Positions 8,759 through 58,566 of a stretch of 64,000 nucleotides of DNA are shown in pieces (the first letter of the stretch is position 1; every line of letters begins with the position of its first letter). The translations under genes were made by a program, and so were the position numbers. The DNA comes from Opitutia bacterium (GTDB lineage Bacteria > Verrucomicrobiota > Verrucomicrobiia > Opitutales > T3Sed10-336), in NCBI GenBank assembly GCA_003558065.1, contig PWMU01000099.1:1-64000 (forward strand), given 5' to 3'. The notes beneath the pieces were generated by a model. The model did no database searches and was not told where the DNA came from. It was given only the letters and a program-made list of their open reading frames with translations.

Positions 8759-9904
8759 ATGAATGACGCCGAAGAGAATCCATTGCTGAACGGTCCGGGT
8801 GAGGTCGGCCTGGTCCAGTACAGCGATTTCGATTACGAAAAGCCGTTTACCTTTGAAGACGGGCAGACGATTCCCCGCTTCAGGCTGCGCTACGAAACCT
8901 ACGGCCGCCTCAACGAGAATCGCAGCAATACCATACTCATCTGCCACGCCCTCAGCGGGGACCATCATTGCGCCGGGGTGTACTCGATTCGGGACCGCAA
9001 GCCGGGCTGGTGGAACAACATGATCGGCCCCGGCAAACCGATCGACACCAATCGGTTCTATGTGATCTGTTCCAACTGCCTGGGGGGCTGCCAGGGATCG
9101 ACCGGTCCCGAGTCGATCAATCCCGACACCGGAAAGCCCTACAACCTCGACTTTCCGTTCGTCACCATCAGCGACATGGTTCGCGCTCAGAAGCAGCTGA
9201 TTGATTATCTTGAGATTCCCGAGCTCTATGCGGTGGTCGGCGGATCCATGGGGGGGATGCAGGTCCTGCAATGGGCCATCGAGTACCCGGAATTCGTCAA
9301 GCGGATCGTTCCCCTCGCCACCACCTCCCGGCAGGGCGCCCAGAGCATTGCGTTCAACGAGGTCGGACGGCAGGCCATTATCCAGGATCCGGAGTGGAAG
9401 GGCGGCAATTACGAGCCCGATGCGGGACCGCGGGTCGGGCTGACCATCGCGAGAATGATGGCTCACATCACCTACCTCTCCGACAAGGGTATGGAACGGA
9501 AATTCGGACGGCGACGCCGCGACAGCGGCGAAATTAATTTCAGTTTTGACGTGGATTTCGAAGTCGAACGCTACCTGCGCTACCAGGGCCAGAGCTTCAT
9601 CAATCGATTTGACGCCAATACCTACCTGTATTTTACGCGGGCTCTCGATTATTTCGACCTGCCGGAAACCTACGGGTCGCTCGAGGCCGCGTTTCGCGAA
9701 GTCCGGGCCCGAGCCCTGGTGATCGGGTTCACCTCCGACTGGCTCTTTCCGCCGGAGCAGAACAAGGAAATCGTCCAGGCCCTCCTCAGACAGCGCAAGC
9801 AGGCCACCTATGCCGAGGTGCCGATGGATTTCGGCCACGATTCATTCCTGGTCGACGCGCCGAACCTCTACCGTCTCATGGTCGCCTTTCTCTGGGATAA
9901 GTGA
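8759..9904 (+). CDS. metX: Homoserine O-acetyltransferase
   Basis: 381 aa alpha/beta hydrolase. It makes O-acyl-homoserine, the activated intermediate for methionine synthesis, from homoserine and an acyl-CoA. Visible marks are ICHALSGDHH, WWNNMIGPGK, the nucleophile elbow GGSMGGMQVLQWA (catalytic Ser), the VIGFTSDWLFPP strand with the acid residue, and the C-terminal FGHDSFLVD with the catalytic His. The length is family-typical. metW follows after three bases, the well-known metXW arrangement. Acetyl versus succinyl specificity cannot be assigned without an alignment. Confidence 0.93.
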   Translation: MNDAEENPLLNGPGEVGLVQYSDFDYEKPFTFEDGQTIPRFRLRYETYGRLNENRSNTILICHALSGDHHCAGVYSIRDRKPGWWNNMIGPGKPIDTNRFYVICSNCLGGCQGSTGPESINPDTGKPYNLDFPFVTISDMVRAQKQLIDYLEIPELYAVVGGSMGGMQVLQWAIEYPEFVKRIVPLATTSRQGAQSIAFNEVGRQAIIQDPEWKGGNYEPDAGPRVGLTIARMMAHITYLSDKGMERKFGRRRRDSGEINFSFDVDFEVERYLRYQGQSFINRFDANTYLYFTRALDYFDLPETYGSLEAAFREVRARALVIGFTSDWLFPPEQNKEIVQALLRQRKQATYAEVPMDFGHDSFLVDAPNLYRLMVAFLWDK

Positions 9905-17779: not shown

Positions 17780-19559
17780 ATCCTGCAACGACCTGGCCGA
17801 CAAAGTGGAGCGCCATGCGGGCGTGCTCGGTCTCGACTGGGAGGGGTACTCCGAGGTTTCGCGGATCTGCGAGGATTTTCGCCGGTCCTGCCGGGAACTC
17901 GCCGAGAACCGCGGGATCGACCAGCTGACGATCGCTTTTACCGGACCGAAGAACTCGGGAAAAACGACGCTGCTTTCGCTCTTTGTTCGCGATGAAACCA
18001 CCCGCAGGCGTTTGCGCGCGGGCTACGCCCGAGCCGACGCCACGGAAAAGGTAACCTGGGTCGGGCCGAATCCGCCCTTCGACCTGCGGGAGGAGAGCGA
18101 GACGCATTTCCGCTGTCGCGAGAGCGACCTGGAGGATCTCGGGTTCCCCTACACTCTTGTCGACGTTCCCGGGCTGAACGAGGCTGACGAGCGCCGGGCG
18201 GAAGCGGCGGTTCATGCCCTGGACAGCGCGCTCGTCAAGGTGCTGGTCCTCGCTCAACGGGAAATGGAGGACAAGGCCGTGTTCCAGTACCTGTCACGCG
18301 CGGACGGGTCGCTGGTTCTGCCGGTGGTCAACCTGGTTCGCGACAAACCGTCACGGGAGGACCTGGACGCCTTTCGGGAGCGGTTGGCGCAACACCTGCC
18401 GCACGCCGAGGTGCGGCCCGTCGTCTGCCTCGAGGATTTCGGAATCCGCGGAAGTGGTGAGGAATCTCCTGTGGGTACCGTCGGTCCCGACGACGCCGCC
18501 CGCCTCAAGGAATCCATCCGTGCCGCCGCCGGTCCCCGGCGACTGCGCGAGCTGCCCCAGGCCCAGTTGAACCACAAGCTACAGCGGTTTCATGAGGATG
18601 TGGGGCGGTTCATGGCGAAGCGCCTTCCGGCAAGCCGCCGAGCGCTCGACGCTCTCCGGGAATCGGAACGCAAGTTGCCCCGGGAGACTCTCCGGCATCT
18701 GCTGGGTTCGGAACCCGCGTTGCGGGCCGGCGTCCGGCAGCGGTTGCGAGCCACGTTTCTGCAACGGACTCCCTGTTTCTTCTTTCCGTGGCGAACGGTC
18801 CTCGCACTGGCCAACCTCCTGCACGGGGCGGTGGAACGGGTGCCCCTGGTGCTCATGGGTAGCCTTCCGTCGTTCGTTTCCGGGGCGTTCACCGCAGCGA
18901 AAAACGTCCGCAACGCCCGGGATTTTTCCCGGGAGGTGGAAGGCGGCATCCGCGACTGCTCGGAGAGCGCGGTCAAAGAGAAGATCACACCCGAGGTTAG
19001 GGAACTGGAGTTCGTCCTGAGGCGCGAACTGGGTACGGCAAAGGGCGAGCCTCCTCCGCGATCCGACGAACTTGAGGTGACTGTTTCCGGCCTCCGCAAC
19101 CTGCAGGCCCGCTCGTCGGAGATCTTTAACCAGGCGGTGGAGCGCCGCGCGCCTTCGCGTGCGGCGGCGGTTTTTTGCGGATTCGCGGGATTTCTGCTAT
19201 TCTGGGGCTTTTTCGCGTGGCCGGTCTACGGGCTGTACCTCGATTTCTTTCAGGCTGTTGGCGAGGTTTTCGGCCGGACCCCCGAGGCTTCCGGCCGCTT
19301 TCCCGCCGCCCCGTTCGGCATGCTGGGGACCAGTCTACTCCTCGCCCTGCTTCCAATGTGCTTTTTTATGCTGGCGGCCGTGTCCCTCCTTGTCCGCCCA
19401 GGAAAGGTGAGCGGTTGTGTCGACGAAATCCGCTCCCGGCATGACGAGACCGTGGCCGAATTGGCCGGCGCCGGGCTGCTGACCATAAAGGTGGAGCAAC
19501 CGCGCATCGACGCCTGTATGTTTCTGCTCAATCTCTCCGTGGACCGAACGCGGGAATAA
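17760..19559 (+). CDS. Membrane-anchored GTPase, second of a tandem pair
   Basis: 599 aa. P-loop GPKNSGKTT is at residues 62-70, G3 DVPGLNEAD at about 138 is canonical (DxPG), and NLVRDK is a possible G4. A helical middle (about 260-460) is followed by hydrophobic segments around 468-495 (VFCGFAGFLLFWGFFAWPVYG) and 520-545. The architecture matches the gene before it, with which it overlaps by 20 bases, so the two are translationally coupled and likely form a heteromeric complex. Tandem partners are known for several bacterial dynamin-like proteins, and membrane remodelling is a reasonable but unproved guess. Confidence 0.78.
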   Translation: MPSRLLESCNDLADKVERHAGVLGLDWEGYSEVSRICEDFRRSCRELAENRGIDQLTIAFTGPKNSGKTTLLSLFVRDETTRRRLRAGYARADATEKVTWVGPNPPFDLREESETHFRCRESDLEDLGFPYTLVDVPGLNEADERRAEAAVHALDSALVKVLVLAQREMEDKAVFQYLSRADGSLVLPVVNLVRDKPSREDLDAFRERLAQHLPHAEVRPVVCLEDFGIRGSGEESPVGTVGPDDAARLKESIRAAAGPRRLRELPQAQLNHKLQRFHEDVGRFMAKRLPASRRALDALRESERKLPRETLRHLLGSEPALRAGVRQRLRATFLQRTPCFFFPWRTVLALANLLHGAVERVPLVLMGSLPSFVSGAFTAAKNVRNARDFSREVEGGIRDCSESAVKEKITPEVRELEFVLRRELGTAKGEPPPRSDELEVTVSGLRNLQARSSEIFNQAVERRAPSRAAAVFCGFAGFLLFWGFFAWPVYGLYLDFFQAVGEVFGRTPEASGRFPAAPFGMLGTSLLLALLPMCFFMLAAVSLLVRPGKVSGCVDEIRSRHDETVAELAGAGLLTIKVEQPRIDACMFLLNLSVDRTRE

Positions 19560-32864: not shown

Positions 32865-32961
32865 GCGGAATGCATCTTGGAAATGGGGATTCCCTCCACG
32901 CCGGGAATCCCCATTCGCTTGACGTCGGGTCGACAAAACTTTGAAAAAACGCCAATAAATT

Positions 32962-37231: not shown

Positions 37232-37262
37232 AAAAAAGGGGCTCCTGAAAATCAGGAGCCCC
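37232..37262 (-). terminator. Rho-independent terminator after rpsR
   Basis: Read on the minus strand, an eleven-pair perfect stem (37238-37248 with 37252-37262, three-base loop) is followed by a run of six T residues. It lies 33 bases past the rpsR stop. Confidence 0.88.
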
Positions 37263-37294
37263 TCCGAAATAAAGAAATAAATGCCGGCGTAAAT

Positions 37295-48761: not shown

Positions 48762-48921
48762 CCTGTGTGGTCCGCTCATTTGCGAAATTCCGACCGTGTC
48801 CCTTGGCACATCGGTTCCGAGGAGTCCCGCAGTGCGCCATTCGGGCCGTTGATCACCCCGAATCGACCGACCGAGCCGGATCCTGCGGCCTCCAACACGA
48901 ATGCCCGCCGGATACTCTTGT

Positions 48922-48959
48922 GCGACAACAATTTTCCCAGCTGGGAAAATTGTTGTCGC
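48922..48959. repeat. 38-bp perfect palindrome before the PaaX-like gene
   Basis: The half GCGACAACAATTTTCCCAG at 48922-48940 is followed at once by its exact reverse complement at 48941-48959, with no spacer. It ends five bases before the ATG of the PaaX-like gene. It could act as an operator for that protein, form a hairpin in the RNA that hides the start, or mark a mobile unit. It has no T-run. A second palindrome of the same design lies at the gene's other end. The gap 48762-48963 holds nothing else visible. Confidence 0.9.
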
Positions 48960-48963
48960 CAGG

Positions 48964-49797
48964 ATGATGGTTCGGGAAACAGAATATTCAGGGACTATGA
49001 GAGCCTCTACCGAACTGTTTTTGTGGGAAATGTATTCGATTGCCGAATCGCTTTTCTACCCATCGTACAGGTATTCGAATGAAAGTTTCGAGGGGTGGGC
49101 CTACAGGAGGGGATTGCTGCGCCAGATTCAGCGTCTGGAAAGGGAAGCCTACCTGGAGCGGCAGCCAGGGGGAAAGGCGGATAGAGTGTATCGGCTTACG
49201 CCGAAAGGACGGTTGGCAGCTTTGGGCGGGAAGGATCCGGAGGAGCGGTGGAATCGCTCTTGGGACGGACGCTGGCGATTGTTGATGTTCGATTTGCCTC
49301 AGGCGCCGGCGGCGCCGCGCAAACAATTGCGGAAGGTGTTGCGGGAGCACGGACTCGGATGCCTGCAGGGTAGTGTTTGGGTGTCGCCTGATCAAATGGA
49401 TTCCCTCCGCAAGCAGATGCGCGGAGACCGGCATCCCTCCTCGCTCCTCCTGTTTGAAGGTGATGCCGTGGGCGGTGAGAAGCCCGGGGAGGTGGTGCGT
49501 GAAGCGTGGGATTTTTCCGAGATCGAGCAATACTGGGCGAGCTATTCGCTGGTGCTTGAGCAAGGGAAGGAGCTCATGGAGGGCCGGGGTCTCGACCGGG
49601 AAAAGTTGCGCGAGTGGAGTGCCCGGGAGCATGCAAGCTGGAAAGAAGTCATCAAGGTGGACCCGTTGCTGCCGGCCGCTTTGTTGCCAAGAGGCTATTC
49701 GGGACGCAAGGTGTGGCGACGTCGCCTGGGGCTCTGGAAGAAAATCGCTGCCCGGTTTCAGAAATCCGGCGGAAAGCCCCTCCAACAGCGACATTAA
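48964..49797 (+). CDS. PaaX-like protein (HTH plus Cas2-like central domain) between two palindromes
   Basis: About 277 aa from the ATG at 48964; ATGs at 48967 and 48997 (MRASTELFLW) are alternatives. An N-terminal winged-helix part (GWAYRRGLLRQIQRLEREAYLERQ, VYRLTPKGRLAAL) is followed by the PaaX middle domain (WDGRWRLLMFDLPQ, RKQLRKVLREHGLGCLQGSVWV), which has a Cas2-like ferredoxin fold in this family. The C-terminal part is helical and basic. PaaX is a repressor of phenylacetate catabolism; no paa genes are here, so the target is unknown. The stop codon lies within the 60-bp palindrome. Confidence 0.78.
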   Translation: MMVRETEYSGTMRASTELFLWEMYSIAESLFYPSYRYSNESFEGWAYRRGLLRQIQRLEREAYLERQPGGKADRVYRLTPKGRLAALGGKDPEERWNRSWDGRWRLLMFDLPQAPAAPRKQLRKVLREHGLGCLQGSVWVSPDQMDSLRKQMRGDRHPSSLLLFEGDAVGGEKPGEVVREAWDFSEIEQYWASYSLVLEQGKELMEGRGLDREKLREWSAREHASWKEVIKVDPLLPAALLPRGYSGRKVWRRRLGLWKKIAARFQKSGGKPLQQRH

Positions 49798-49836
49798 AAT
49801 TCCCAGCTGGGAATTTTAATGTCGCTGTTGGAGGGG
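49777..49836. repeat. 60-bp perfect palindrome at the end of the PaaX-like gene
   Basis: A 30-base half (49777-49806) is followed without spacer by its exact reverse complement (49807-49836). The innermost 19 bases (GCGACATTAAAATTCCCAG) share the outer GCGACA and inner TTCCCAG of the 38-bp palindrome, with a different middle six (TTAAAA versus ACAATT). It covers the last seven codons and stop of the PaaX-like gene. It has no T-run, so it is not a standard terminator. The gap from its end to 50109 has no gene I recognise. Confidence 0.9.
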
Positions 49837-58534: not shown

Positions 58535-58566
58535 AAAAAAAAGGCCGGCGCCAGGCGCCGGCCTTT
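58535..58566 (-). terminator. Rho-independent terminator after the NirK-like gene
   Basis: A perfect thirteen-pair stem with one-base loop spans 58540-58566 (AAAGGCCGGCGCC and its inverse). Read on the minus strand it is followed by a T-run of eight. It lies 45 bases past the stop of the gene at 58611-60746. Confidence 0.88.

Follow-up and report, generated by a model that had tools for sequence, protein, structure and literature searches.

Dispersed palindromes in bacteria have so far been tied mainly to the Y1 tyrosine transposases. In REPtrons, the gene of a RAYT tyrosine transposase is flanked by GTAG REPs, and TIRtrons are likewise Y1 genes flanked by palindromes (PMC3733652). This is the nearest described arrangement (PMC3733652) to the locus analyzed here, in which a PaaX/Cas2-like gene is bracketed by two perfect palindromes of 38 and 60 bp. 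The locus lies within a 64-kb stretch of DNA from an Opitutia bacterium, which is referred to as the window hereafter (Table 1). As in REPtrons and TIRtrons, a single gene is bracketed by short palindromic repeats that are also dispersed, mostly extragenic and sometimes paired. Three differences from REPtrons were found, however. The protein is PaaX/Cas2-like and lacks the Y1 HUH domain, the defining feature of REPtrons; there is neither a GTAG nor a CGTC tag, and the repeats, as seen in the genome G236, are symmetrical without a one-sided tag; and the palindromes are loopless, often perfect, and of a type that matches the individual protein. The locus resembles the IS200/IS605 elements in that a single gene forms a compact unit whose two ends are hairpin-forming DNA, but it has no Y1/HUH transposase, and it carries full palindromes in contrast to the imperfect subterminal hairpins of those elements. 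Thus, membership in the REP/RAYT or IS200/IS605 units, which an earlier note on this DNA had brought up, was not borne out, because the protein is of another kind and the solo palindromes do not lie beside Y1 genes.

Table 1 Features of the palindrome-bracketed locus, in window positions (the slash marks the junction of the two arms)
Feature	Position	Strand	Description
Left palindrome	48922..48959	.	19-bp arms, perfect, no spacer; GCGACAACAATTTTCCCAG/CTGGGAAAATTGTTGTCGC
PaaX/Cas2-like gene	48997..49797	+	266 aa plus stop; Pfam PaaX_M and PaaX_C; most likely start, by alignment
N-terminal winged-helix-like DNA-binding region (putative)	48997..49248	+	residues 1-84; from weak PadR/HTH matches and position relative to PaaX_M
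Central Cas2-like domain	49255..49494	+	residues 87-166; D99 codon 49291-49293; Q124 and S126 of the LQxS motif
PaaX_C-like domain	49507..49713	+	residues 171-239; C-terminal motif DPLLPxxLxPxxYxG, invariant across the alignment of 42 relatives
Right palindrome	49777..49836	.	60 bp, 30-bp arms, perfect, no spacer; covers the stop codon
Right-palindrome core	49788-49825		counterpart of the left palindrome

Both palindromes were confirmed at the positions and lengths given in the earlier note. They are the longest perfect palindromes of the window, the third longest being only 18 bp, and as DNA hairpins they have energies of -18.9 kcal/mol (left; z -8.5) and -34 kcal/mol (right; z -14). Their proposed relatedness was also upheld: a core of about 38 bp is common to the two, and there are five related copies genome-wide. 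The additional 11 bp in each arm of the right palindrome are the mirrored 3′ coding end of the PaaX-like gene. The central 14-mer, TTCCCAGCTGGGAA, occurs five times in the 4.13-Mb source genome (G000), every time within a long palindrome, and the reversed control of this pattern gave no match there. Beyond the window pair, the copies are three solos, on the contigs C60, C78 (31-bp arms) and C102, and the consensus around all five is CGACA-(variable A/T-rich)-TTCCCAG/CTGGGAA-...-TGTCG. In the variable middle, these copies differ almost exclusively by exchanges of A and T. An assembly artefact was rejected, since related palindromes recur in genomes obtained independently and since G001, a sister species of the same genus, has an orthologue that is slightly decayed. 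A known RNA family was also rejected, the only matches being sub-threshold ones to miRNA hairpins, as expected by chance of any perfect hairpin. Elsewhere in the window, ordinary hairpins with loops, probably terminators, are located at 32882-32915, 37237-37263 and 58540-58566.

The translation start is probably the ATG at 48997 rather than the ATG at 48964 or the further in-frame start at 48901, which would give longer proteins, because the homologues begin at MKAxTELF. The left palindrome therefore probably ends 37 bp before the gene; the earlier note had placed it five bases before the ATG at 48964, and of this statement the palindrome stands while the start probably does not. The window protein matched Pfam PaaX_M (E = 2.9e-17) and PaaX_C (4.1e-4), in agreement with the earlier description of a PaaX-type protein with a Cas2-like center. 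The PaaX_M (PF20803) scores range from 63 to 80.6 bits, above the gathering score of 24, which places these proteins in the PaaX-like superfamily. No Y1_Tnp match was found in the protein by the profile search, where PaaX_M, PaaX_C and TIGR02277 were matched instead.

With the PaaX repressors (TIGR02277, 8a39), the protein shares a winged-helix-like region at the N-terminus, a Cas2-like middle and PaaX_C. Unlike them, however, it is encoded between palindromes, and its TIGR02277 scores (51.9 to 65.4 bits; 51.9 bits and E 7.7e-14 for the window protein) are far under the curated cut-off of 264.55. Furthermore, it has an Asp and a QxS motif, while the aligned E. coli PaaX (8a39) lacks both this Asp and the Gln of QxS. 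These residues recall Cas2 (TIGR01573, PF09827), in which an Asp ending strand 1, a downstream Arg and Q-x-S follow one another in the same order, as judged by sequence alignment. The domain differs from Cas2 in being fused in a PaaX-type protein and in matching the Cas2 profiles only weakly (E 0.0016 to 0.11, with a cas2 match of 0.0016 for the window protein; 13 to 18.7 bits, under the cut-offs of 23.8 or 24.5). W85, W89, W93, D99, R108, G121, Q124 and S126 are invariant in all 42 aligned relatives, and the order of the motifs suggests that D99 would be the counterpart of the metal-binding Asp of Cas2. In the subfamily of the loci L037, L038, L049 and L052, conservation is highest in the Cas2-like domain (81-83% versus 54-65% for the N-terminus in these comparisons). 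The protein is under purifying selection, with a dN/dS of 0.09-0.17 where estimable. An AlphaFold model from a three-sequence alignment had a pLDDT of 47 and was too poor for use. Relatives of the protein were matched neither in phages nor in viral contigs, and the plasmid matches, mostly annotated as PaaX-family regulators, were only 25-33% identical; a phage or plasmid origin was therefore rejected.

The bracketing is not peculiar to the window. A first scan of contigs gave two relatives of about 45% identity, L018 and L019, in MAGs of Verrucomicrobiaceae and Akkermansiaceae. Both are bracketed by palindromes unlike those of the window in sequence: the ends of L018 share TGATGCGGCCGCATCA, and the palindromes of L019, 48 and 34 bp long, have one core in common. 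Among 388 Verrucomicrobiota genomes searched, 26 were found to hold relatives of the gene, patchily distributed and up to three per genome. When the best palindrome at each gene end was scored against a null from windows of the same locus, a palindrome above the 99th percentile was found at one end or both in 36 of the 42 loci, and at both ends in 19. Of 85 gene ends taken from the other genes of these loci, a single one exceeded that level, and it was a solo copy of the element's own palindrome.

Within each element, the palindromes at the two ends match, whereas between elements the sequence differs; the centers of different elements are commonly CGATCG, GGCC, CAGCTG or similar. The more alike two proteins are, the more alike are their palindromes (Mantel r 0.45, 0 of 500 permutations), a correlation confounded by shared ancestry. 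L037, L038, L049 and L052 are one inherited locus, and among these orthologues the palindrome type of L049 differs from that of the other three, at both ends together. In the palindromes of G236 (L048, L096-L111), the variable positions 12-14 are G or C in all of 34 half-sites and never A or T, so that here, as in the five copies of the source genome, the variation preserves strong or weak bases.

We regard as probable, with modest confidence, a REPtron-like system of repeats that has a PaaX/Cas2-like protein, and not a tyrosine transposase, as its dedicated component. The window would hold one member of a phylum-wide system composed of a gene between two palindromes (P-gene-P) and scattered solo P, with P of about 36-44 bp. 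That the protein recognizes its own P is strongly implied and very likely; it would probably do so as a dimer, with the N-terminal winged-helix-like region making the contact. Because the gene start is overlapped or closely preceded by the left P, the protein probably also limits its own expression.

The strongest rival, although on balance unlikely, takes this last point as the whole function: the protein would be an autoregulated repressor without any mobility, with the left palindrome as its operator, the right one as a second site and the solos as the operators through which it controls a small regulon. The PaaX relatives characterized to date act as repressors of transcription, which counts against a repeat system. 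The protein belongs to that family, whose E. coli member is named a repressor in 8a39, and in most loci the left palindrome does lie over or just before the start. Purifying selection and the vertical inheritance of several copies are also in its favor. On the other hand, the copies at the 3′ and 5′ ends are equally conserved across relatives, the Cas2-type Asp and QxS are invariant, and the number and positions of the solos fit operators poorly.

Copy numbers vary greatly among species. In G236, the 18 core matches consist of the 2 copies bracketing the gene, 15 solos and 1 chance match; the 17 true palindromes have in common a 40-bp unit, TGTTTCAYTTASSSTCACGA/TCGTGASSSTAARTGAAACA, in unrelated flanks, and 7 of them are perfect against 2.3 expected after shuffling halves. 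G187 has 22 core matches, about 20 of them solos, and G277, G257 and G336 have 8, 6 and 5 core matches, respectively. The gene-less relatives G163 and G028 gave no palindrome match. In the genus of the window, G001 keeps only the slightly decayed copy, at the position of the C78 solo, and G002 has none. All 15 solos of G236, where genes were called by ORF length only, are intergenic, with a median distance of 15.5 bp to the 3′ end of a gene; just one lies between divergent genes. The C78 solo sits between convergent genes in G001. Some solos in other genomes are inside long ORFs, but the solos as a whole are mostly intergenic. Several G187 solos form fixed composite pairs, 36 or 65 bp apart, which resemble BIMEs and also speak against simple operators. 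At two solos 1065 bp apart in another genome (L084 1501-2581; G056:C16), a DnaQ-like exonuclease ORF lies in between, perhaps by chance or as cargo. A search with the DNA flanks of the C60 solo returned only unrelated repeats; a dispersed repeat of another kind, about 150 bp long, is present on that contig (L012 6756-6907) and has more than 40 copies in G001 at 81-100% identity.

Mobilization of the palindromes as REP/MITE-type repeats by a RAYT or other transposase, with the paaX-like gene as a captured passenger, is improbable. Y1 transposases do occur in these genomes, and RAYT-like debris surrounds the C102 copy: its palindrome directly precedes a second, truncated paaX copy with 77% identity over 69 residues, and both are located between two RAYT-like pieces, a C-terminal one at 9275-9754 and an N-terminal one from 10146 onward, which were recognized by eye from ORFs (L014 8600-10300). 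PaaX remnants were not found at the solos examined. Mobilization by RAYT is nevertheless unlikely, because no Y1 gene was found within 6 kb of any solo in G236, G336, G257 or G277, nor in the source genome among the matches listed. Moreover, the PaaX-like gene is the sole recurrent partner of the palindromes across the 26 genomes and their many palindrome types, and its capture would have to recur independently for each type. The 5.3-Mb genome of G187 has an unusually large RAYT-like complement, with 134 Y1_Tnp matches.

Still less probable is a role at gene ends, as bidirectional terminators or as hairpins that protect mRNA. The strength of the hairpins and the proximity of the solos to gene 3′ ends would suit such a role, but one copy also precedes the gene start, there is no T-run, and neither an intrinsic terminator nor a sigma-70 promoter was predicted at the palindromes. 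Other genes of the same loci lack such palindromes at their ends, and only this one gene family is bracketed on both sides. Resolution sites at which the protein, like a protelomerase, would make hairpin ends through a dumbbell intermediate of P-gene-P are hardly credible, since, despite the long perfect palindromes with a C/G-rich center at both ends of a compact unit, the protein has no similarity to protelomerases and no linear form was seen.

As for the mobility that the REPtron-like reading includes, a similar unit in different flanks, the pattern expected of a transposable element, was found: the L059 unit is 81-85% identical to L040/L041, with the similarity confined to the unit, and the solos lie in unrelated flanks. 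For the window unit, the left flank has a counterpart of 78% identity in G001 that lacks the unit, and the right flank is rearranged there and not syntenic. The sister species G300 lacks two of the G336 solos at the corresponding intergenic positions. No clean, base-exact empty site accompanied by a target duplication was found, the compared intergenic regions being too diverged. A comparison of the three G187 copies gave no clean copy boundaries. Several gene copies are vertically inherited, at a single locus across a genus, and therefore the gene is not a purely transient insertion; together with the strong purifying selection, this inheritance also fits a domesticated regulator. The palindrome-bound or palindrome-mobilized module of the earlier note is thus supported in part, and it withstands the refutation proposed there: the palindromes accompany the gene in relatives, with matching ends, and the solos are not ordinary terminators, while binding by the protein and mobility are predicted. 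Separately, a different long inverted repeat, CCAAGGGGAGGGTCC...GGACCCTCCCCTTGG, occupies the spot of G300 matching a G336 solo (L142; C18 about 18600-18790).

In the REPtron-like system, the Cas2-like domain, with its invariant Asp and QxS, would nick or cut P, either as an extruded hairpin or as a duplex. The cutting may carry P into additional sites close to the 3′ ends of genes and may keep the two arms and the two ends alike. That the protein causes the dispersal of P is a predicted role, and we hold it at slightly less than even chances. More tentatively, the domain could provide the catalysis in a novel class of mobile-element enzymes that cut or nick palindromes and spread them; P-paaX-P would then be the first transposon-like system driven by a PaaX/Cas2 fold, and a possible relative of the CRISPR Cas2 lineage.

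In the open-access papers searched, among which most subscription papers are missing, no report was found that links PaaX with Cas2 or that connects PaaX to palindromes and transposition in the present sense, and this looks like a kind of protein not previously linked to a mobile-repeat system. The constant partner of dispersed palindromes throughout the phylum is a protein different from the Y1 transposases, with a Cas2-like core keeping the key residues of Cas2. Should this protein move or maintain the palindromes, it would represent a mobile-repeat enzyme of a new type and would place Cas2-like domains outside CRISPR in a cellular setting open to tests. Should its role be limited to binding, the protein and its palindrome would still form a fast-evolving pair, whose many natural specificities could help in the study of changes in DNA recognition.
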